A stretch of 64,000 nt of DNA from Akkermansiaceae bacterium (GTDB taxonomy: Bacteria > Verrucomicrobiota > Verrucomicrobiia > Verrucomicrobiales > Akkermansiaceae): the NCBI GenBank assembly GCA_028822935.1, contig JAPKCM010000003.1, forward strand, positions 62,001 to 126,000, written 5' to 3'. Of this stretch, positions 14,314 through 38,021 are shown one piece after another. Positions within the stretch are counted from its first letter, which is position 1. Each line of letters begins with the position of its first letter. The notes beneath the pieces are model-generated. The model was not told the DNA's origin and did no database searches. It saw only the letters and a list, made by a program, of their open reading frames with translations. Position numbers and translations under genes: made by a program.

Positions 14314-14346
14314 CGTTCAAATCTCACTGTTCGTGTTCAAATCTCA
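14314..14346. repeat. GTTCAAATCTCA repeat, two units
   Basis: Two direct units, CGTTCAAATCTCACTGTTC and GTTCGTGTTCAAATCTCA, overlap just before the dehydrogenase start. The second is identical over 18 bases with the right arm of the inverted-repeat element at 21621-21838. It belongs to the dispersed family also seen inside uvrA. Confidence 0.65.
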
Positions 14347-14353
14347 ATTCCCC

Positions 14354-15394
14354 ATGTCCTACGCAATCGAATTCACCGACGTCAAAAAAATCACCCCTGT
14401 CGATCTCCCCGACGTCGAAGCGCCCGCTCCCGGCGAGGCCCTCGTCCGCACCCATCGCATGGGCATCTGCGGAACCGACCTCTCCTGCTACCTCGGTAAA
14501 TTTCCCTTCTTCGCCTACCCACGCACTCCCGGTCACGAACTCGGCCTCGAAGTCGTCGCCGTCGGCGAGGGCGTCACCAACGTGAAGCCCGGCGACAAGT
14601 GCGCCCTTGAGCCCTACCTCAACGACCCCGAGTCCATCCCCTCGAAAAAAGGCCACTCCAATGCCTGCTCGAATGTCTCCGTCGTCGGCGTCCACCAATC
14701 AGGCGGACTCCGTAAATCGAACTGGACCGTCCCCGCACACAAGCTGCATCCCGGAAACGATCTTTCCTACGATGAACTCGCCCTCGTCGAGACCCTCGCC
14801 ATCGGCTACCACGCCGTAAAGCGCGGCAATCCACAACCCGGCGAAATCGTCATGGTAATCGGCGCCGGCCCCATCGGCCTCGCCGCCCTCGAGTTCCTCA
14901 AACTCATGGATCTCAAAGTCATCGTCGTCGATTTCGCCCAAAACCGCCTCGACTTCTGCTCCGAGAAACTCGGCATTGAGCACACCATCCAGCCTCAAGC
15001 CGATGGCTCCCACCTCGCCGAGATTGAAAAAATCACCGAAGGAGGATTCTGCGACGTCATCATCGACGCCACCGGACACGCCGGCTCCATGGTCCAGTGT
15101 TTCGAATATGCCGCCGTCGGCGGCCGCGTCGTCTACGTCGGCATCACCGCCCAGGACATCACCTTCCCGCAGGCCCCCCATTTCCACCGCCGCGAGCTCT
15201 CCGTCATCGCCAGCAGAAATGCCCTCCCAGCCGACTTCCCCGAAATCATCGACATCCTCGGCCAAAAGAAAATCAACCTTCAAAACTGGATCACCCACCG
15301 CCTCGACATCACCGAGGTCCCCGAAGGATTCGACAAGTTCACCGACCCCGCCACCGGAGCCATCAAAGCTCTAATAATAGTGAATGATGAGTAG
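14354..15394 (+). CDS. Zinc-type medium-chain dehydrogenase, probable sugar acid/polyol dehydrogenase
   Basis: A 346-residue MDR-family dehydrogenase. Catalytic zinc ligands are in MGICGTDLSCY (Cys) and TPGHELGLEV (His-Glu). The NAD-binding Rossmann motif is MVIGAGPIGLAALEF. The usual four-cysteine structural zinc lobe is replaced by a segment with only one cysteine (GHSNACSNVSV), so structural zinc is probably absent. Related enzymes oxidise polyols, threonine or L-galactonate (to D-tagaturonate). Because UxaE, which acts on tagaturonate, lies downstream, an L-galactonate 5-dehydrogenase role is proposed; this is inference. The ATG at 14354 directly follows repeat DNA, so the natural promoter may be further upstream with the reductase gene. 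Confidence 0.85.
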   Translation: MSYAIEFTDVKKITPVDLPDVEAPAPGEALVRTHRMGICGTDLSCYLGKFPFFAYPRTPGHELGLEVVAVGEGVTNVKPGDKCALEPYLNDPESIPSKKGHSNACSNVSVVGVHQSGGLRKSNWTVPAHKLHPGNDLSYDELALVETLAIGYHAVKRGNPQPGEIVMVIGAGPIGLAALEFLKLMDLKVIVVDFAQNRLDFCSEKLGIEHTIQPQADGSHLAEIEKITEGGFCDVIIDATGHAGSMVQCFEYAAVGGRVVYVGITAQDITFPQAPHFHRRELSVIASRNALPADFPEIIDILGQKKINLQNWITHRLDITEVPEGFDKFTDPATGAIKALIIVNDE

Positions 15395-15408
15395 AGAGTG
15401 ATAAATTT

Positions 15409-15719
15409 ATGACTGAGTAACCAACAGAAATTCGTGAACGATCATTCGATTTTGCAGTTCGGATCGTAAAGCTCTGTCAACAACTTAAAAACCAACCTGG
15501 AGTTTCCCGAACCCTTGCAAATCAACTCCTTCGCTCGGGAACATCTATCGGAGTAAACATCGAGGAAGCACGCGAAACCCACTACTGGCTCCGCCTCCTC
15601 ATCAAAACCGAAATCGTCCCCGAACAAAACTCACCTCCCTCCTCGACGAATCAAATAGCCCCCTCAACCAAGAAATTCACAACTCAAAATTCGCCGACGC
15701 TTCACCAAAAAAATTCTAA
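15409..15719 (+). pseudogene. Four-helix bundle (S23/23S rRNA intervening-sequence family) pseudogene
   Basis: The frame reads R-E-R-SFDFAVRIVKLCQQL, then NQLLRSGTSIGVNIEEA, then RETHYWLRLLIKTEIVPE, which are the hallmark segments of the S23 family. Three lesions are seen: TAA at codon 4 (15418-15420) after ATG 15409, an internal in-frame loss of the roughly 20-25 residues that normally separate NIEEA from the ARETHYWL motif, and a frame change near 15625 after which the family-like tail KLTSLLDESN appears in the next frame. The gene is therefore non-functional in family terms. It lies between the zinc dehydrogenase and uxaE. Confidence 0.85.
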
Positions 15720-18670: not shown

Positions 18671-19002
18671 CCTATGCATCCAACTCCCCGCCAATTTCGT
18701 TACCAATATTGTCCGACTCATCACCCCCGGGCTTCGTCATCCCGGCAAACTTCTTGGAGGCCGACTTGGGAAACTACCTTGATTTCGATGGTCAAGATTT
18801 TCTGGATATCGACTCGCTTCCGCTCGACGGCACGCAGTCTCTTGACGGTCTGATCGGGAACACTGACCGCACCGCCTTCACGATCAACTCCAACGCGACT
18901 CCCACCAATTTCTCTGGCCAAACTGCCACCATTCCTGAACCCGCGACTGGACTTCTGGCACTTCTCGGCCTGAGCGCTCTCGTTGCGCGCCGGAGAAGCT
19001 AG
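18671..19002 (+). pseudogene. PEP-CTERM protein 3' fragment
   Basis: The frame ends with a clear PEP-CTERM sorting signal: PEPATGLLALLGLSALVARR, comprising the PEP motif, a hydrophobic helix and a basic tail. Such proteins are exported and processed by exosortase. The part before it (LPLDGTQSLDGLIGNTDRTA) looks like the end of a secreted domain, but no signal peptide or proper start exists; the frame runs back into the terminator at 18643, and a better-looking stretch (ANFVTNIVRLITPG) is in another frame. I read it as a 5'-truncated, frame-shifted remnant. Confidence 0.65.
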
Positions 19003-19036
19003 AAGAATCATAGGGATTTCAGCCCCGAACGAAAAG

Positions 19037-19062
19037 GCGACCTCACAGGAGGTCGCTTTTTT
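19037..19062 (+). terminator. Intrinsic terminator after the PEP-CTERM remnant
   Basis: GCGACCTC-ACAG-GAGGTCGC is an 8-bp perfect stem followed by TTTTTT. Confidence 0.9.
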
Positions 19063-19141
19063 GTGTCCCTTTGTAAGCAATCAGCGCAATCCCTCCATTT
19101 TTTTTCCTGCTTTCCCCCTCCAAATTTGTCACAACCTTCCC

Positions 19142-21616
19142 ATGAAATCATGCGCCTTCCTGCTCCTTCTTCCGCTTCCGGTCTTTGGCGAAGTCGATTT
19201 CAACCGCGATATCCGCCCCATCCTCTCCGATAAGTGCTTCCATTGCCACGGCCCGGACGAAAAACACCGCGAATCCGACCTCCGTCTCGACACCTATGAG
19301 GGGGCGACCGAAGGAGGCGAATTCGAAATCCCCATCGAACCAGGAAAGCCCGATGCCTCGGAAGTCATCGCCCGCATCCTCGACTCTGATCCCGATGAGA
19401 TCATGCCTCCACCGGAGACTCACAAAAAGATCACTCCTAAAGAAATATCACTGCTCCGGCAATGGATCACCGAAGGAGCAAAATACGACGAGCCCTGGAC
19501 TTACAAATCTCCCATCGCGCACCCAACTCCCGAAGTAAAAACGAAAGACTGGCCCGTCAACTGGGTCGATCAATTCATTCTCGCACGACTTGAGGATGAA
19601 AAAACTCCACCTTCCCCGGATGCCGATCTGGTCACTTTGCTCAGACGGCTCCATTTTGACCTCACCGGACTTCCACCAAAGCCCGACGACCTTCGCCGCT
19701 TTAAAACGGCCTACCAAATTACTCCTCAATCCGCCATCGAGGCCGAAGTCGATCTCCTCCTCGCCTCTCCGCATTTCGGTGAACGCATGGCCATTTATTG
19801 GCTCGATCTCGTCCGCTACGCCGACACCGTGGGCTACCACGGTGATCAAGATCAGCGGATCTCGCCCTACCGCGATTACGTCATCAATTCCTTCAACGAG
19901 AACAAGTCCTTCGACCAATTCACTCGCGAACAACTCGCCGGCGATCTCCTTCCAAACCCCACCGAAGACCAACGCGTCGCCACCGGCTATAATCGCCTGC
20001 TTCAAACCACTCACGAAGGTGGGCTTCAGAAAAAAGAATACCGCGCCATTTACCAAGCCGACCGCGTCCGTAACGTCTCTGCCGTCTGGATGGGAGCCAC
20101 CGTGGGCTGCGCGCAATGCCACGATCACAAATACGATCCCTACACCGCCAAGGACTTCCATACCCTGGGAGCCTTCTTTGCCGACATCGACGACGAACAG
20201 CATTTCAGCGCCGGAACCAACTCCCTCCCCACCAATCGCCCTCCGGAAATCCCCGTCCTAACCGCCGCAGAGAATCAGCAACTCGACTCCCTTAACAAGA
20301 AACTCACCGACCTCTCAAAAGGCGAGCGCAACGAAATCGCCCGTCTCGTTGCGAAATCCGCCAGCCGGGACGCACACGCAAAACGAGAGAAAAATTCCAA
20401 AAAGAAAACGGACGCCGAAGCCGCCCTCAAACGAACCAACGACGCCCTCACCAAATTCATCTCTGGCGACCAACTCGCTGAATGGAAGAAAGCCGAAGCC
20501 CAACGCAAGAAGGTCGAATCCTCCGCCCGGCGCACCATGATTACCGTCGCGCTCAAGGAGCCCCGCGAATCCCGCATCTTCCCCCGAGGCAACTGGCTCG
20601 ATGAATCAGGCGAGATCGTGCAAGCTTCCGTCCCCCACTTCATGCCCCAGATCAAAAAAGAGGAGCGCCAGACGCGCCTCGATCTCGCCAATTGGCTCAC
20701 TGATACAAAAAACGGCACGGGAGGACTCACCGCTCGTGTCACCGCCAATCGTTTCTTCTACCTCTTCTTCGGCACGGGAATCTCTCGCTCCCTAGGAGAC
20801 TTTGGAGGGCAGGGCCAACCACCCTCCAACCCTCAACTCTTGGATCGTCTTGCGGTCGACTTCTACGAATCAGGCTGGGACATGAAGCACCTCGTCAAAA
20901 CCTTGGTCACCTCGCGAGCCTATCGCCAATCATCTTTCGAAACATCCATTCTCCGCGAGCAGGACCCCTACAACGAGCTCGTTGCCCGCCAATCACGCTT
21001 TCGCCTCCCAGCAGAAATGATCCGCGATAACGCACTCGCAATTTCCGGCCTTCTTGTCCCCGATATCGGAGGTGATTCCGTGAAACCCTATCAGCCTTCC
21101 GGCTACTACCGTCACCTCAACTTTCCGCCTCGAAAGTATCAACAGCATAGCGATGAACGGATCTATCGTCGTAGCGTGTATATCCATTGGCAGCGCCAAT
21201 TCCTTCATCCCATGCTCAAAGCTTTCGATGCACCCAGCCGCGAGGAATGCACCGCCGAGCGCCCTCAATCCAACACCCCGGTGGCTGCGATGAACCTCCT
21301 CAACGACCCCACCTTTGTCGAAGCTGCAAGAGTTCTCGCCGAGCGTGTTCTAAAAGAAGCCCAACCCAACGACCGCCTCAATCACGCCTTCCTGATCGTC
21401 CTCAACCGGCCGCCGACCGAAGAAGAAATATCGACTCTCGGCTCCCTCTACACCTACGCCGAGAACGACTTTAAAAAGAATCCCAAGTCAGCCACCGCTC
21501 TAATCAACATCGGTCAAACAAAACCGGCCGCAGACTTCAATCACATCGAACTCGCCACCTGGACCACCATTTCTCGTGCCCTCCTCAACCTCTCTGAAAC
21601 CACTACAAGGAACTGA
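19142..21616 (+). CDS. PSD1 and planctomycete cytochrome C domain protein (PSCyt1-DUF1549-DUF1553)
   Basis: An 824-residue exported protein. After a signal peptide (MKSCAFLLLLPLPVFG) comes a PSCyt1 haem-type domain with CFHCHG (C-x2-CH, about residue 31) and the MPP motif IMPPPETHKKIT, then a DUF1549 domain (WVDQFILARLEDEKTPPSPD, LRRLHFDLTGLPP), a second CAQCHDHKYDP motif, and a C-terminal DUF1553/PSD1 domain (ANRFFYLFFGTGISRSLGDF, SRAYRQSS). Such proteins are abundant in Planctomycetes and Verrucomicrobia, usually paired with a DUF1501 gene as here (21845). Their biochemical role is not settled; a role in oxidative polysaccharide use is often suggested. The start at 19142 opens the signal peptide. 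Confidence 0.92.
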   Translation: MKSCAFLLLLPLPVFGEVDFNRDIRPILSDKCFHCHGPDEKHRESDLRLDTYEGATEGGEFEIPIEPGKPDASEVIARILDSDPDEIMPPPETHKKITPKEISLLRQWITEGAKYDEPWTYKSPIAHPTPEVKTKDWPVNWVDQFILARLEDEKTPPSPDADLVTLLRRLHFDLTGLPPKPDDLRRFKTAYQITPQSAIEAEVDLLLASPHFGERMAIYWLDLVRYADTVGYHGDQDQRISPYRDYVINSFNENKSFDQFTREQLAGDLLPNPTEDQRVATGYNRLLQTTHEGGLQKKEYRAIYQADRVRNVSAVWMGATVGCAQCHDHKYDPYTAKDFHTLGAFFADIDDEQHFSAGTNSLPTNRPPEIPVLTAAENQQLDSLNKKLTDLSKGERNEIARLVAKSASRDAHAKREKNSKKKTDAEAALKRTNDALTKFISGDQLAEWKKAEAQRKKVESSARRTMITVALKEPRESRIFPRGNWLDESGEIVQASVPHFMPQIKKEERQTRLDLANWLTDTKNGTGGLTARVTANRFFYLFFGTGISRSLGDFGGQGQPPSNPQLLDRLAVDFYESGWDMKHLVKTLVTSRAYRQSSFETSILREQDPYNELVARQSRFRLPAEMIRDNALAISGLLVPDIGGDSVKPYQPSGYYRHLNFPPRKYQQHSDERIYRRSVYIHWQRQFLHPMLKAFDAPSREECTAERPQSNTPVAAMNLLNDPTFVEAARVLAERVLKEAQPNDRLNHAFLIVLNRPPTEEEISTLGSLYTYAENDFKKNPKSATALINIGQTKPAADFNHIELATWTTISRALLNLSETTTRN

Positions 21617-21620
21617 ACTC

Positions 21621-21838
21621 TGAACAGTGAGATTTGAACACGAACGATGAACGTCAAGACTTCCTCTCCGCCCGATTTAAGCGAACGACTCCAGCAAGTC
21701 CCACTCATTGCAAATCCTAAAAACCTCTTCCCTCTCATCGACGAAACCGATCAACTCGAGCGCATCCTCAACACTTCAATTTCCACCGTAAAAGGTCGCA
21801 AATAGCCTGCATCGTTCGTGTTCAAATCTCACTATTCA
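21621..21838. mobile_element. 218-bp inverted-repeat element carrying an S23 gene fragment
   Basis: The left arm (21621-21649) and right arm (21810-21838) are 29-base inverted repeats with a single mismatch; the right arm reads CATCGTTCGTGTTCAAATCT and continues CACTATTCA. Between them lies a 3' fragment of a four-helix-bundle gene. The arms belong to the dispersed GTTCAAATCTCA family. The structure is MITE-like; mobility is inference, and no target duplication was recognised. Confidence 0.6.
21647..21805 (+). pseudogene. S23/four-helix-bundle family 3' fragment
   Basis: A 52-residue frame ending LFPLIDETDQLERILNTSIS-TVKGRK resembles the last helix of S23-family four-helix-bundle proteins. 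The first three helices, including the RSGTSIG-NIEEA motif, are absent. The ATG lies inside the left arm of the inverted repeat, so translation as a small protein cannot be excluded but seems accidental. Confidence 0.5.
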
Positions 21839-21844
21839 AAGCTC

Positions 21845-23263
21845 ATGTCTCCTGCCTCAAATTTCATCTCCCGCCGCACCTTCCTCAACAACGCAGGAAT
21901 GTCCTTCGGCACCACCGCGCTCTTGTCGCAACTCATGCGCGCCGAGGGGATCGGCTCTGACCACAAAGGTCTCTCCGGCTTCCCTCACCATCCGCCCAAG
22001 GCAAAACGCGTCATCTTTCTCTGCATGGCCGGCGGTCCTTCTCATCTCGAGACCTTCGACTACAAACCCCAGCTCGATAAACTCGATGGCAAACCCATGC
22101 CCGAGTCCTTCACCAAGGGCCAGCCCATCGCCCAGCTTCAGGGAAAGGAACTCAAAGTCCTCGGCCACACCACCAAGTTCAAGCAATACGGTAAGTCCGG
22201 GCAGTATATCTCCGACTACCTTCCCCACCACGCGAAAATGGCGGACGACATGACCGTCATCCGCTCCATGGTCACCGAGCAGATCAATCACGATCCCGCC
22301 CACACTTTCATGAACACCGGCACCGCGATCAGCGGTCGCCCTTCCATGGGATCATGGATCAACTACGGCCTCGGGTCCGAAACCGAAGACCTTCCCGGAT
22401 TCGTCGTCCTTTCCTCCGTCGGTGGCCGCAATCCTCAACCCATCGCGAGTCGCCAATGGGCCTCAGGCTTCTTACCCTCGCGCTTTCAAGGCGTCGAATT
22501 CAACTCCACCGGCGATCCAGTTCACTACGTTTCCAATCCCGCCGGAGTGGATCGGACGCACCAAAGCGCTCTGATCAAGACGATCCAAAAACTCGACGCC
22601 CAGCGTAATGAACTCGTCGACAACCCCGAAATCGCCACCCGCATCAGCGCCTATGAAATGGCCTTTCGCATGCAAGCCTCCGTCCCCGAACTCACCGATC
22701 TCTCCGGCGAGTCAAAAAAGACCCTCGAAATGTATGGCGCTACTCCCGGCGATGGCTCCTATGCTTCAAACTGCCTTCTCGCCCGCCGATTGGTCGAAAA
22801 AGGCAGCCGCTTTGTGCAACTCTATCATCGAGGCTGGGACCATCATGGCGACCTCGATAAATACATGAAGGTCTGCTGCCAGCACACGGACCAAGCGACC
22901 TACGCCCTCCTCACCGATCTCAAACAACGCGGGCTCCTCCAGGACACTCTCGTCGTCTGGGGAGGCGAATTTGGACGCACCCCCATGTTCCAGGGCAAAG
23001 GCGGCCCCGGACGCGATCACCATATCAAAGGCTTCTCCATGTGGATGGCCGGAGGCGGCGTAAAGCCCGGCCTCAGTTATGGCGCGACCGACGAACTCGG
23101 CTACAACGCCCAAAAAGACATCGTCCACGTTCGCGACTTCCACGCCACCCTCCTCCACCTCCTCGGCATCGACCACCATCGCTTCTCCAAGAAGTTCCAA
23201 GGCCTCGACATGCGACTCACCGGGGTCGAACCGGCAAAGGTGGTCAAAGGAATTCTTTCTTAA
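21845..23263 (+). CDS. DUF1501 family exported protein
   Basis: A 472-residue DUF1501 protein, related in fold to sulfatases/alkaline phosphatases. The N-terminus carries a twin-arginine-like signal (FISRRTFLNNAGMSFGTTAL). Family segments include FLCMAGGPSHLETFDYKP, DMTVIRSMVTEQINHDPAH, VVWGGEFGRTPMFQGKGGPG and GRDHHIKGFSMWMAGGGVKPG. It is encoded just downstream of the PSD1 gene, the standard pairing in this group of bacteria; here an inverted-repeat element has entered the spacer. Exported function unknown. ATG 21845 directly abuts the repeat arm; a start nine codons upstream would lie inside the repeat and is not preferred. Confidence 0.92.
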   Translation: MSPASNFISRRTFLNNAGMSFGTTALLSQLMRAEGIGSDHKGLSGFPHHPPKAKRVIFLCMAGGPSHLETFDYKPQLDKLDGKPMPESFTKGQPIAQLQGKELKVLGHTTKFKQYGKSGQYISDYLPHHAKMADDMTVIRSMVTEQINHDPAHTFMNTGTAISGRPSMGSWINYGLGSETEDLPGFVVLSSVGGRNPQPIASRQWASGFLPSRFQGVEFNSTGDPVHYVSNPAGVDRTHQSALIKTIQKLDAQRNELVDNPEIATRISAYEMAFRMQASVPELTDLSGESKKTLEMYGATPGDGSYASNCLLARRLVEKGSRFVQLYHRGWDHHGDLDKYMKVCCQHTDQATYALLTDLKQRGLLQDTLVVWGGEFGRTPMFQGKGGPGRDHHIKGFSMWMAGGGVKPGLSYGATDELGYNAQKDIVHVRDFHATLLHLLGIDHHRFSKKFQGLDMRLTGVEPAKVVKGILS

Positions 23264-32426: not shown

Positions 32427-35400
32427 GTGCCGAAGAAAGCTGCTAAGAAAAAGACTGCCTCCGCAAACAAGCGCGTCGAAAAAAACGCCATTCGGATCCA
32501 CGGCGCCCGGCAGCACAACCTCAAGAGCCTCGATCTTGAGATCCCTGTTGGCGAACTCACCGTCATCACCGGCCCCTCAGGCTCCGGCAAATCCTCCCTC
32601 GCCTTTCACACGCTCTATGCGGAAGGCCAGCGACGCTACGTCGAGACATTTTCCCCCTACGTGCGGCAGTTTTTCGACCGTATGGACAAGCCGGAAGTCG
32701 ACCGAATCGATGGCATCCCTCCCGCCATCGCGATCGAGCAAAAAAACACCATCCGCACCACCCGCTCGACCGTCGGCACCCTCACCGAGGTCAACGACTA
32801 CCTCAAACTCCTCTACCCCCGTCTTGCCACCGGCTATCACCCCGCCACCGGTGAGCCAGTCCAGCCGGATTCGCCGGACTCCATCCTCACTTGGTGCGAA
32901 AAAAACTTCGCCGATGACACCATTCTCATCCTCTTTCCCATCCCGATTCCCCAGGACACCGCTCCCGAAGAACTCTTCCCCTTCCTAAACTCGCAGGCCT
33001 ATCTCCGCATTCTCTTGGATGGCGAAATCATCCGCACCGATTCCCCTCCCAAGCTCAAAAAACTCCCCACCGAAGTCCTCATCATCCAAGATCGGATCAA
33101 GGTCTCCCCCCGCAACCGCGCCCGCCTCACCGAAGCCGCCGAAAATTCCCTCCGCCTCGGAAAAGGCAAAGCCATCGTTCAAAGTTCAGATCTCACTGTT
33201 CCCAGTTCAGAGTTCACCTCCTCCTGGGCCCCCCTCCGTCAACCCACCTCTTCTCTCTTCTCCTTCAATTCCCCTCTCGGTGCCTGCCAAAGTTGCCGAG
33301 GCTTCGGACGCATCGTCGGAATCGATCTCGAGAAGGCCGTCCCAAATCACCTCCTCTCGCTCAAGCAAGGCGCTATCAAACCATTCACCGGGGAACGCGG
33401 GGAACAGAGCCAGCAGGACCTCCTCAAGGCCTGCAAGGAAGCGCAAATAGATCCCAAAATTCCCTGGAACAAACTCAGCCCGAAGCAGCAACATTGGGTC
33501 AAGTATGGCGAGCGCAGTCCGAAATCTTCCCTCACTTCTCTGGAGCAATCAGAGTCCCTTTGGAGCGAAAGCCGATGGTATGGCATCCAGGGCTTCTTCG
33601 ATTGGCTCGAAACAAAAGCCTACAAGATGCACGTCCGCGTCTTCCTCGCCCGCTACCGTGCTTATACCACCTGCCCCGACTGCCAAGGCAGCCGACTCCA
33701 GCCCGACGCCCTTCATTTTAAAATCCTCGGCAAAACGCTCCCCGAGCTTTGGCACATCCCCCTCGATCAACTCATCTTCTTCTTCGACAGCGTCGCCAGC
33801 ACCCACGCCCCTCTCGATAAATCCTGCGAGCTCGTCCACCACGAAATCACTTCCCGTTTAAAATACCTCAACGAAGTAGGCCTCGGCTACCTCACTCTCG
33901 ATCGACCCGCCCGGACGCTCAGTGGCGGAGAAATCGCCCGCGTCAATCTCACCACCTGCCTCGGCTCCGCGCTCACTCACACCCTCTTCGTTTTGGATGA
34001 GCCCACCGTGGGACTGCATCACCGCGACATCAACCGCCTCACCAAGGTGATGCACGCGCTCCGCGATAAGGGGAACACCCTCGTTGTCGTCGAGCATGAT
34101 GAAGCCGTCATGCGCGAGGCCGACAACCTCATCGACATGGGCCCACATGCTGGCGAAGGCGGCGGCTCCATCGTGGCAGAGACCTCCGGCGCCCCTCCCA
34201 AATCAGCCCTCAAAAAATTCCCCCAATCCAACACCCTCCCCTACCTCCTTGGCCAAAGGACGATTCCTGTTCCGAAAAAATACCGTAAGCCCAAGGCCCA
34301 TCTTAAAATCTCGCGCGCCTCGGCAAACAACATCGAAGAACTAGAGGTCGATCTTCCCCTCGGCGTCTTCGTCGCTCTCACTGGCGTCTCTGGATCGGGC
34401 AAGTCCACCCTCGCTCACCCCATCATTTACAACAACCTCGCGCGCCATTTCGGCATCGTCACTGATGAGGCACCCGCCGCTGCTAAGATCGAGAATATCG
34501 AGGAACTTAATGGCGTCCAACTCATCGACCAATCACCTCTCTCCCGTACTCCAAGGTCGACTCCGGCCGTCCTCCTCGGGGCCTTTGAGCATCTCCGGAT
34601 TCTTCTCTCACTCACACCCGCTGCCAAGATTCGCGAACTCACGCCCGGCTACTTTTCCTTCAACTCCGGTCCCGGTCGCTGTCAGCGCTGCTCCGGAAAT
34701 GGTTTCGAAAAAGTAGAGATGCAGTTCCTCTCCGATCTCTACCTCACCTGCCCCGAGTGCAGCGGCTCCCGCTTCACGCGCGCCGCCCAGGAAATCAAAT
34801 TCCACGGCAAGTCAGTCACCGACCTCCTCCGCTGCACCTCGACCGAGGCCATCGGTTTCCTCGACACCGTGAAGCCCGCTTCGCGGAAAGAAGAACTCCT
34901 CATTTCCAAAATCCGCTTCGCTCTCCAGCCCCTCATCGACACCGGACTCGGCTACCTCCGCCTCGGACAGCCCCTCAACACCCTCTCCGGCGGTGAAGCC
35001 CAACGGCTCAAACTTTGCCAACTTCTCACGAGCACCAAAGGAAGCATCAACAGCCTCCTCATCCTCGATGAGCCCACCACCGGGCTCCACTTCGTCGACA
35101 TCGAGCGCCTCCTCACGATCTTCCATCGCCTCGCCGATGCGGGCTATTCCCTCCTGGTCATCGAGCACCAACTCGACGTCATCCGCAATGCCGACCACGT
35201 CATCGAACTCGGCCCCGAAGCCGGAATCAACGGCGGTCAGGTCATCTTCGAAGGAACCCCGAAAGAACTCGCCAAAGCGAAAACCCACACTGCCCAAGCC
35301 GCGGCCGCGATCTCCGGTCGCGTTGCCAAGAAAGCTCCAAAAAAGAAGCAACCTCATTTCAGATCTCAAATCTCTCTTCACGGTCTCCGACATCACAACC

Positions 35401-38021
35401 TCAAAAACATCTCCCTCGATATCCCACTCCACGAGTTCGTTGTCATCTCCGGTCTTTCTGGCTCCGGGAAATCGACCCTCGCCTTCGACGTCCTGTTCGC
35501 CGAAGGACAGCGCCGCTTTCTCGACTCGATGTCTCCCTACGCCCGCCAGTTTGCGAGCCAATTGGAAAAGCCGGACCTCGACCATATCGAAGGCCTCCCA
35601 CCCACTGTCGCCATCGAGCAGCGCATTTCCCGTGGCGGCGGAAAATCTACCGTCGGAACCGTCACCGAGATCTTCCATTTCCTCCGACTCCTCTTTGCCA
35701 AAGTGGGCATCCAGCACTGTCCGCAGTCAGGTGAGGCCGTCGTATCACAAACCCCGGAAGCGATCGGAAACCAACTCGGCAAGCTCCTCAAAAAACACAA
35801 AACCCTCAAGCTTCTCTCGCCCGTCCTCCGCGGCCGAAAAGGCTTCCACAAGGAATACGCCCAAGCCGCAGCGAAGGCCAACCTCAAGGAAATGTTCATC
35901 GATGGTGCCCTCATCCAAACCGAGGACTTCCAACCCCTCGCGCGCCACAAGGCCCACGACATCGACTTCGTCATCGCCGAGATCTCCAAAGGTGACAAAG
36001 ACATCAACGGACACCTAGCCACCGCCCTCCAATATGGCAAAGGCACCTTCCGGGTCCTCCCCGACTCTCAAGGTTCAAATCTCAAATCTCAAAACTCAGA
36101 TCTCAAAACCTTCTCCACTGCCCGCGTCTCCCCCACCACCGGCGAATCCTTCGAAGCGCTCGACCCCCACCACTTCTCCTTCAACTCTCCTCGCGGATGG
36201 TGCAAAACCTGCCGCGGCTACGGTCACATCACCTCTGGCTCCCTTGATATAAAGAGCTTCAATTCAGAAGCCGAAGCCGAGATCCACGAAGAAAAAAAAG
36301 TCGCCAAAGCCGACCCCGATGAAATACGCACCTGCCCCGATTGCCACGGCGCGCGTCTTCGCGAGTCCAGCTGCCACGTCCTTCTTCCTGGAGTCGAAAT
36401 CAGCCTTCCCGCCCTCTCAGCCCTCACCGTAAAAGACGGCCTCAATCTCATTAAGATTCTCAAATTCAAAGGGCGCGACCATCTCGTCGCCCGCGACATC
36501 ATCCCCGAAATCGTCCAGCGTCTCGAATTCCTCGATCACGTCGGCCTCGGCTACCTCCAACTCGATCGCTCCGCCACCACCCTCTCCGGCGGCGAGTCCC
36601 AGCGCATTCGCCTGGCCGCCCAACTCGGATCGAACCTTCAAGGCGTTCTCTACATTCTCGACGAACCCACCATCGGACTCCACCCACGCGACAACGCCGC
36701 CCTTCTGAAAACTCTCCAAGCGCTCAAGGCAAAAGGCAACTCGCTCATTCTCGTCGAGCACGATGAAGACACCATCAAAGCCGCCACCCACCTCATCGAC
36801 CTCGGTCCCGGCGCTGGAGTCGAAGGCGGCGAAGTCGTCTTCGAAGGCAACGTTCAACGCTCAGAGTTCAACGTTCAGAGTTTAGCGTTCAAATCTTCCC
36901 CCACTATCCAAGCCCTCAAAAACCCGCTCATCCACCCCTCACGCGGCGAACGACGCAAAATCCTTAAAGCGAAGAAGAACTGGCTCGAGCTCAAAGGCTG
37001 CACCATCAACAACCTGAAGAATCTCGACGTAAAGATCCCCCTTGGCCGCCTCACCGTTCTCACCGGCGTCTCGGGATCTGGAAAATCCTCACTCATGCGG
37101 GGCTGCCTCTCCGTGGCCGCGACCTCCGGTCGCGAAGCCAAAAAGTCATCTCAGACCGTCCAACTCCCCTATCAAAAAGCAAGCGGTTTCGATACCTTCA
37201 AGTATCGCTACGAAGTCGACCAAACTCCAATCGGCAAAACCTCCCGCTCCTGCCCCGCCACTTACGTCAAACTCTTCGACCACATCCGCGCCCTCTATGC
37301 CCAGCTTCCCGAAGCGCGCATGCGCGGCTACACCGCCTCCCGCTTCTCCTTCAATAACAAAGAAGGCCAATGCCCCGAGTGCAGGGGCAACGGACGCATC
37401 AAGCTCGAGATGGACTTCCTCCCGACGACTTGGATCGATTGCGAAGCCTGCCACGGCGACCGCTACAATTCCGCGACCCTCGAAATCCGCTACAACGGCC
37501 TGAGCATCGGAGACGTCCTCAATCTCAATATCAAAACCGCGGCCGAGTTCTTCGACGCCCACCCCAAGCTTCAAAAACCCCTCTCCCTCCTCGCCGAAAC
37601 CGGCCTCGGCTACCTCACCCTCGGCCAACCCAGCCCCACCGTTTCCGGCGGCGAAGCGCAGCGACTCAAGCTCGTCACGCAACTCACCAAAGGTCGCCCC
37701 AAGATCACCGACGTCGGCCCCATCAATACGAATCTCTATCTCATCGAAGAGCCCACCATCGGACTCCACCAACAAGACGTCGCCCGTCTCACCGACGTCC
37801 TCCATCGACTCGTCGACGAAGGCCACACCGTCGTCGTCATCGAGCACCACATGGACCTCGCGGCGGAAGCCGACTACCTCATCGACCTCGGCCCCGAAGC
37901 CGGCCCCGCAGGCGGCCAAATCATCGCCCAAGGCACGCCGGAAGAAGTGGCCAAAAATAAAAAATCCGTCACCGCTCCTTTCATCAAAGCAGTGCTAACA
38001 AATTCCTACTACCAACAATGA
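32427..38021 (+). CDS. uvrA: Double-length UvrA (two fused UvrA units)
   Basis: UvrA recognises DNA lesions for nucleotide excision repair. A normal UvrA has about 940 residues and two ABC ATPases; this protein has 1864 residues and four. Walker A motifs lie near residues 49, 653, 1009 and 1548; signatures LSGGE near 498, 853, 1386 and VSGGE near 1738; Walker B as [30 protein letters not shown] and, in the last, [10 protein letters not shown]. Four C-x2-C zinc modules are present (CQSCRGFG ... CPDCQGSR and the like). The two units are about residues 20-960 and 985-1864. The GTG start opens a Lys-rich leader. Four repeat-derived tracts (33177, 35358, 36072, 36851) are in frame in linkers. Long UvrAs of this kind are known in this phylum; whether it replaces or adds to a normal UvrA cannot be seen. 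Confidence 0.92.
33177..33218. repeat. GTTCA/TCTCA repeat tract inside uvrA (1)
   Basis: GTTCAAAGTTCAGATCTCAC and CAGTTCAGAGTTCACC lie in frame, coding [14 protein letters not shown] (about residues 251-264). The tract stands just before the FSFNSP/zinc segment of unit 1. Confidence 0.65.
35358..35381. repeat. GTTCA/TCTCA repeat tract inside uvrA (2)
   Basis: TTCAGATCTCAAATCTCTCT lies in frame (FRSQISL, about residues 978-985) in the linker between the two UvrA units. It is the shortest of the four tracts and could be chance. Confidence 0.4.
36072..36110. repeat. GTTCA/TCTCA repeat tract inside uvrA (3)
   Basis: GGTTCAAATCTCAAATCTCA followed by AAACTCAGATCTCAAAACC lies in frame ([13 protein letters not shown], about residues 1216-1229). 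It is at the position in unit 2 that corresponds to tract 1 in unit 1. Confidence 0.65.
36851..36895. repeat. GTTCA/TCTCA repeat tract inside uvrA (4)
   Basis: CGTTCAACGCTCAGAGTTCA, ACGTTCAGAG and GCGTTCAAATC lie in frame ([15 protein letters not shown], about residues 1475-1490), in the linker between the two ATPase modules of unit 2. Confidence 0.65.

Follow-up and report, generated by a model that had tools for sequence, protein, structure and literature searches.

A decayed S23 element between inverted heptamer arrays in an Akkermansiaceae genome and its relatives in other phyla

In REP/RAYT loci (repetitive extragenic palindromes with their associated tyrosine transposases), a protein gene is flanked by inverted copies of a repeat, which also occurs as scattered single copies. 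S23 proteins (PF05635) are common in the Verrucomicrobiota and are known mainly from intervening sequences (IVSs) of ribosomal RNA, without an established function. Avd of the diversity-generating retroelements is a four-helix-bundle pentamer of the S23 kind. Here, a decayed S23 gene enclosed by inverted arrays of a 7-base word is described from an Akkermansiaceae bacterium and compared with S23 loci of congeners, of the family, of the phylum and of other phyla. The window, that is, the whole stretch of 64,000 nucleotides analysed, is contig C138:62001-126000 of a 4.59-Mb draft genome (label G000).

The IVSs of 23S rRNA combine S23 open reading frames (ORFs) with terminal inverted stems that are cleaved by RNase III (PMC4990558). 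In Coxiella, the IVS carries an S23 ORF preceded by tandem heptamers, has a 28-bp terminal stem and is excised by RNase III, while S23p of Xanthomonas is a ring of five four-helix bundles (PMC4990558). Heptamer arrays have been described earlier as mostly intergenic and without an agreed role (PMC4692102, PMC4679880). They include three heptanucleotides in Calothrix, GGGAATC in Xanthomonas and GGGGA(C/T)T in Nostoc, with pairs of convergent repeats in 70 and 75 cases in Xanthomonas (PMC4692102), and TAACTGA in Beggiatoaceae, cyanobacteria and Bacteroidetes (PMC4679880). The term S23 has 0 occurrences in either paper, and no report linking S23 genes outside rRNA with heptamer arms was found in open-licence PMC papers, whose coverage is partial.

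Judged from its sequence, the stretch 21614-21845 of the window is a decayed S23 element, in which an S23 gene stands between two inverted arrays of 7-base words. Its parts, and the host genes on either side, are the following:

21614..21649, + strand: left arm, with heptads TGAACTC, TGAACAG, TGAGATT, TGAACAC and GAACGAT; its first bases are the TGA stop of PSD1 and its last the ATG of the S23 remnant
21647..21805, + strand: decayed S23 gene, a 52-aa derivative by in-frame internal deletion, with about 15 N-terminal and 37 C-terminal residues retained
21810..21845, + strand: right arm, a near-exact reverse complement of the left arm; its final base, 21845, is the A of the DUF1501 ATG
18983..21616, + strand: upstream host gene PSCyt1/PSCyt2/PSD1 (DUF1549/DUF1553), 877 aa
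21845..23263, + strand: downstream host gene, DUF1501 protein

The arms form a 36-nt pair, 92% complementary, with 160 nt between them. The 29-nt arms with one mismatch noticed in the preliminary description (21621-21649 and 21810-21838) are real and make up the inner part of this pair; at equal base use, about 6e-9 such pairs (29 nt, at most one mismatch, arms at most 300 nt apart) would be expected by chance in 64 kb. In a scan of 461 kb of this genome, the window pair is also the sole inverted repeat that scores at least 16 and has a 60-800 nt loop; a 3-mer-shuffled control of that scan gave 0. The element occupies the gap from the PSD1 stop codon to the DUF1501 start, a placement already proposed and borne out by the gene calls on either side. 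Its interior had been taken for the last helix of an S23 gene; the gene fragment is real and larger than that, and about 72 codons were lost in frame. Although a Pfam scan of the 52-aa ORF alone returned 0 families, a single BLASTP comparison with an intact relative gave 65% identity over 37 aa (E 3e-15), and 33 of the 52 residues are identical in a global alignment. This relative is the intact ortholog in congener G009 (locus L043), a protein of 124 aa that matches PF05635 at 60.6 bits and the solved structure 2rld_A, deposited as an uncharacterized protein, at E 1.7e-15. Between the two elements, the left arms are almost identical, whereas the flanks are merely 73-76% identical. The window right arm copies the left arm in reverse, the S23 start included; in L043 the right arm does not. 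No transposase was found inside the window element, where only the interior was covered and no search in trans was made.

With the 23S rRNA IVSs the element shares an S23 ORF, intact in L043 and carrying an in-frame deletion in the window, and terminal inverted repeats; the layout has a precedent in rRNA, since the Coxiella IVS combines stem, heptamers and S23 ORF (PMC4990558). Unlike those IVSs, the window element does not lie inside a 23S rRNA gene, being placed in a protein-coding operon between PSD1 and DUF1501; arm words vary between S23 elements and often change in concert, and the arms give no sign of G-U tolerance. A 23S rRNA context for the S23 loci was also considered and rejected, as three short 23S motifs matched none of the loci examined. 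As in REP/RAYT loci, the gene stands between inverted copies of a repeat that also occurs singly elsewhere in the genome; unlike them, there is no Y1 (HUH) transposase between the arms, only S23, and the repeat units are tandem words of 7-8 bases where REPs are palindromes. The tandem units of about 7 bases in intergenic DNA resemble the heptamer arrays known as short tandemly repeated repetitive (STRR) sequences. Neither reverse transcriptase, template nor variable repeat, as in diversity-generating retroelements, occurs between the window arms. Nor are the terminal repeats the same in all copies, as in a miniature inverted-repeat transposable element (MITE) or another derivative of an insertion sequence, only 1 of 53 same-genome pairs being alike. 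By these comparisons the element resembles both the 23S rRNA IVSs and the REP/RAYT loci and belongs to neither. The class is named an IVS-like S23 element, of which the window feature is a decayed member.

PF05635 was matched in 26/27 congeners (a figure that counts a vertically inherited S23-like gene), 86/117 family members and 140/194 phylum members sampled. Loci with flanks numbered 171 in Verrucomicrobiota, 80 in other phyla, 13 on viral contigs and 14 on named plasmids. The 80 cross-phylum loci, from named genomes of many phyla, were picked by S23 protein similarity alone, with phyla assigned by record titles; 6 of the 171 (near contig ends) and 3 of the 80 were dropped. For each locus, 165 nt upstream were compared with the reverse complement of 165 nt downstream, and arms were called at a score of at least 14. 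Collecting flanks around S23 genes in search of shared terminal repeats had been proposed beforehand, and it proved productive: inverted arms were found at 97 of 150 non-vertical Verrucomicrobiota loci, against 29 of 2000 mismatched pairs in a control that kept orthologs, and the same score was reached in direct orientation at 11 of the 150. In the other phyla the count was 53/77 against 211/2000 mismatched pairs, the background being higher because unrelated genomes share the same word. Inverted repeats scoring at least 16 enclose S23 in 64/155 and 42/80 loci, respectively; elsewhere in the 494 and 256 kb there were 16 and 21 hits, several of them repeated hits within one locus. The comparison thus shows that arms surround many S23 genes in Verrucomicrobiota, Bacteroidota, Planctomycetota, Desulfobacterota, Nitrospirae, Cyanobacteria and others.

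A conserved S23-like gene of many congeners (MATEIGHR..., about 40-52 bits; L045-L059, L078) behaves differently. It has arms in 0 of 15 loci and no inverted repeat scoring at least 16 at 16 loci, and it runs opposite to both neighbours in 14 of 15. It probably has a separate, vertically kept function.

The arms are arrays of words. Relative to shuffled sequence, identity at lags of 7, 14 and 21 nt was 1.45, 1.38 and 1.23 upstream of S23 and 1.47, 1.33 and 1.21 downstream, with no rise at period 7 in the S23 coding sequence (about 1.0) or 500-900 nt upstream. A strong periodic run was present in 111/150 loci, with a best lag of 7 or 14 in 83, compared with 2/150 after shuffling, 9/146 in the far flank and 1/15 for the vertical paralog; the cross-phylum set has periods of 7 and 8. 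In 44 of the 81 loci that have arrays on both sides, the left consensus word agrees with the right one (random pairs, 53/1172). Over 124 loci, arm identity was 0.89 in register, 0.56 at a shift of one word and 0.24 at other shifts, and the arms therefore share the order of their word variants, beyond the word itself.

Among 134 pairs of S23 loci occupying the same site in two species, left and right arms of one element matched with a score of 16.3, compared with 10.7 for orthologous left arms, 12.1 for orthologous right arms and 9.2 for crossed arms, and the match within the element exceeded that between orthologous left arms in 107 pairs. The 53 same-genome paralog pairs, of which 1 has similar arms, come from 18 genomes, and an element's own two arms match at 20 of 48 of these loci; because arms differ between paralogs while own arms match, the arms belong to the element. 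The idea that they form one repeat family failed at this point, since paralogs in one genome carry different words. Of 17 pairs computed for S23, 12 gave a defined dN/dS, in the range 0.04-0.29, and 5 were saturated (an eighteenth pair was dropped for an internal stop). Comparison thus shows S23 to be under purifying selection, with arms that change quickly and at many sites in concert, and shows that over longer times the two arms change together.

The preliminary description had asked for empty sites, and these exist at both sites where they were sought. At PSD1-DUF1501, congeners G019, G015 and G016 have an empty 4-nt gap from stop to start, as read from the printed sequences, and G012 shows a third state, a remnant with the N-terminal part of S23. 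In G003, G007, G002, G017 and G026 the spacer to the RRTF anchor is 88-89 nt and no S23 or heptads were seen by eye (in G026 the spacer was read entirely by eye, the script not having found the PSD1 end); in G008 it is 40 nt. For this comparison L306 (G009) was read from L043 and L307 (G013) was excluded. The DUF1501 tree groups G000, G012 and G019 (0.974) with G009 outside, so that the order of gain and loss of S23 at the window site is not fixed. A single inherited insertion at PSD1-DUF1501 was rejected for the whole set, the S23 proteins not being monophyletic. The DUF1501 family is itself very large in the genus, with up to 66 matches per genome in the own genome and congeners. At metK-ahcY, where the query matched in 20 of 27 genomes, the gap measures 15-43 nt where S23 is absent (13 genomes) and 258-450 nt where it is present (four genomes); G024 has S23 there with an unmeasurable gap, G017 looks empty by eye after its upstream end was miscalled by script, and G023 has 155 nt with no S23 assigned. 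A search for target duplications, also proposed earlier, was less rewarding: none was seen by eye at these two sites, where the unoccupied gaps are short and have diverged. Of 21 shared insertion sites, 11 have S23 proteins that group in a clade exclusive to the site, 4 more have such a clade with one or two extra tips, and 6 have none; residence is often long and vertical, as the 11 site-exclusive clades indicate. Left arms start at, or a few bases past, the upstream stop codon in many loci. Among the 148 loci with neighbour calls (2 of 150 were dropped for lack of one), both neighbours run in the direction of S23 in 93, the downstream one alone in 34, the upstream one alone in 12 and neither in 9, figures that stand without a baseline from ordinary genes.

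The word follows the protein. At non-homologous sites, arm similarity (score at least 14) rises from 0.5% of pairs at S23 similarity below 0.3 to 45% above 0.7 (22,913 pairs, with 307 homologous-flank pairs set aside on purpose), and the rise holds separately in the Verrucomicrobiota and cross-phylum collections. Half of the cross-phylum S23 subfamily (40 of 80 loci, spread over several phyla) carries AGGCA inverted on either side of the gene; in the broad set 3 of 155 loci do, all three being the query loci. Judging by these sequences, gene and arms may be co-inherited, or the protein may constrain the word; the second is attractive given the fast turnover of arms elsewhere.

Words also occur away from S23. 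The window word, GTTCAAATCTCA, is found with at most one mismatch at 64 places in its own genome, compared with 6 for a reversed control pattern; exact copies number 20 in G000, 6 in G009, the owner of the intact element, and 0-3 in the 25 other congeners. The preliminary description had tied this word to S23, but 62 of the 64 copies lie outside the S23 element, the outcome named beforehand as refuting the tie for that family. The idea of a single mobile unit in which every S23 gene has GTTCAAATCTCA arms is rejected, as words vary from element to element and GTTCAAATCTCA is but one among many. The word of another family member, GTAGCnAGTAGCnnGTAGC (the GTAGC word), has 14 matches at 12 places in G032, two of which are the arms of its S23 (L107); no other of the 117 genomes has as many separate places, and 109 have none. 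No match to this word was found in G079, whose S23 (L099) has a related word. Arrays of a further word, AGAC, lie within about 200 nt of an S23 at no fewer than 5 of the 29 distinct places (hand count) among the matches listed. Solo copies are mostly read in the sense of nearby open frames, an orientation that the test used favours.

S23 elements are also carried by extrachromosomal DNA. Arms scoring at least 14.5 flank 12 of 14 plasmid loci (a sample of 14 of 33 records), in Nostoc, Anabaena, Calothrix, Geminocystis, Picosynechococcus, Aulosira, Trichormus, Stanieria and Azospirillum, with an arm score of 10 at the Nostoc HK-01 plasmid locus, and 11 of 13 viral-contig loci score at least 15, three of them with identical arms; neither set has a mismatched-pair control. 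Phage records gave no S23 match. On plasmids of Picosynechococcus, Anabaena 90 and Pseudanabaena (L364, L365, L369), an array-flanked S23 lies between CRISPR genes, cas10/cmr3 once and cas6/cas4 twice.

The best explanation of these observations may be a REP/RAYT-like partnership of S23 with its own word, a proposal whose chances we put at about even. The S23 ring would recognise its own word in the arrays, and it is probable that S23 does recognise its word. Inverted arms would allow DNA copying to switch strands inside the element, which would carry a change in one arm over to its partner; the ordered copying between arms points to such DNA-level strand switching. With enzymes supplied in trans, the unit and the solo arrays could occasionally be copied to new intergenic sites, and the layout would be that of a REP/RAYT locus with an S23 protein replacing the transposase. 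In this light the earlier suggestion that S23 genes and repeats travel together stands in part: gene and arms are linked beyond chance in several phyla, closely related S23 proteins at unrelated sites tend to have similar arms, and empty sites exist, but S23 often stays at one site. A wider proposal is more tentative and seems possible, if somewhat doubtful: S23 proteins could be word-specific nucleic-acid-binding rings, with the heptamer repeats of cyanobacteria and others as their binding arrays, which would make a two-part element of co-evolving protein and word, outside rRNA and without a transposase, whose arms are rewritten in concert.

Several observations weigh against this partnership. 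Arms are not universal, since 53/150 Verrucomicrobiota and 24/77 cross-phylum loci score below 14, and none of the other S23 loci of the own genome within the 461-kb scan reached 16. Almost half of the same-site pairs (66/134) come from one site, metK-ahcY, and orthologous left arms score higher against each other than left against right at 8 of the 16 shared sites, many of which involve close relatives. At plasmid locus L369 of Pseudanabaena, both flanks carry arrays, but in direct orientation instead of inverted. An all-pairs correlation of arms and proteins between the Verrucomicrobiota set and other phyla was null (rho -0.02), the link being confined to similar proteins, and co-inheritance of gene and arms could yield it without recognition. 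As to scattered copies, G012 has a decayed element of the window word yet just 2 of them; the reversed control of the GTAGC word matched in 4 genomes, 36 times in G059; the AGAC word matched in 19 genomes and its reversed control in 25 (hand count of the table); and most solo arrays have no S23 nearby.

The arms might instead act in RNA, pairing in the operon transcript to form a long stem cut by RNase III, as in the 23S rRNA IVSs, so that selection on the stem keeps them matched. The precedent is direct, as S23-bearing IVSs with inverted stems, that of Coxiella with heptamers too, are cut by RNase III (PMC4990558), and the downstream gene is co-directional with S23 in 127 of 148 loci, a count given without an ordinary-pair baseline. 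A stem under RNA selection would, however, be expected to tolerate G-U pairs, of which the arm transitions give no sign: wobble-compatible transitions were fewer than others, 69 against 106 (32 against 43 in the cross-phylum set, not significant), although arm composition may bias this comparison. With direct-orientation arrays such as those of L369 counted against it as well, this account is unlikely. A slighter chance attaches to copying through RNA, in which S23 would act like its relative Avd as the partner of a reverse transcriptase supplied in trans, and the unit would be placed in transcribed intergenic sites. Arms do begin near upstream stop codons, mostly in the operon sense, and untyped reverse transcriptase matches occur in 8 of 13 congeners with mobile-type S23 against 1 of 14 without it (p 0.004, from a hand-made table); counted the other way, mobile-type S23 is present in 8 of 9 congeners with such a match and in 5 of 18 without one, a weak lead from draft genomes. 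The association may, however, mirror how much mobile DNA a genome carries overall, no such match occurs in 5 of the genomes that bear S23, and the drafts are incomplete.

Of comparably low probability is a passive origin, in which heptamer arrays spread by polymerase slippage and strand switching unrelated to S23, whose genes merely lie among them. Solo arrays are indeed plentiful and can lie inside coding genes; inverted pairs, on the other hand, are rare away from S23 (the one pair in 461 kb is the window element itself), and words follow S23 similarity. Movement as MITE-like cargo, by an ordinary transposase acting on shared terminal inverted repeats, would account for inverted ends, for empty sites in the genus and for the lack of an own transposase between the arms. 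It is nevertheless very improbable: with arms alike in just 1 of 53 same-genome pairs, elements of one genome offer no common transposase end, no target duplication was seen by eye at two sites with short, diverged gaps, and S23 often tracks its site.

The window holds a second S23 pseudogene, also noticed earlier, and further arrays:

15380..15408, + strand: decayed left arm of the second element, word family GTGAATG/GAGAGTG, aligned with L070
15409..15690, + strand: S23 pseudogene of the second element, internally deleted and with a frame change further on; PF05635, 37.8 bits
15676..15692, + strand: right-arm remnant of the second element (TTCACAACTCAAAATTC), aligned with L070
14315..14346, + strand: solo array of the first element's word, with no S23 alongside
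33177..33195, + strand: solo GTTCAAATCTCA words with 1-2 mismatches, in frame within a long UvrA-like gene
36068..36105, + strand: solo heptad array, in frame in the same gene
36848..36889, + strand: solo heptad array of a different word (AACGTTC type), in frame in the same gene

By alignment, the pseudogene at 15409 corresponds to an element that is intact at this site in congener G018 (L070) and has decayed here. The repeat-like DNA reported near it resolves into two things: its own decayed arms at 15380-15408 and 15676-15692, and the array at 14315-14346, which is a solo array of the other word. The in-frame heptad arrays of the 1864-aa ORF, which we take from its sequence to be UvrA-like, belong to two word families and encode peptides; they appear to have been inserted there. 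Elsewhere in this genome, a long array of repeated CTCTGAC has no S23 assigned nearby (L350 15339-15412; G000:C126, about 75339).

That the two arms of an element are rewritten together while it stays at one site, around a protein that is conserved, is in itself an unusual evolutionary pattern. Heptamer tandem repeats have been a separate old puzzle, and the layout of S23 gene and arrays found in many phyla may tie the S23 protein family to these long-unexplained repeats. Should S23 genes and heptamer arrays prove to be halves of a single system, each could be put to a direct test.
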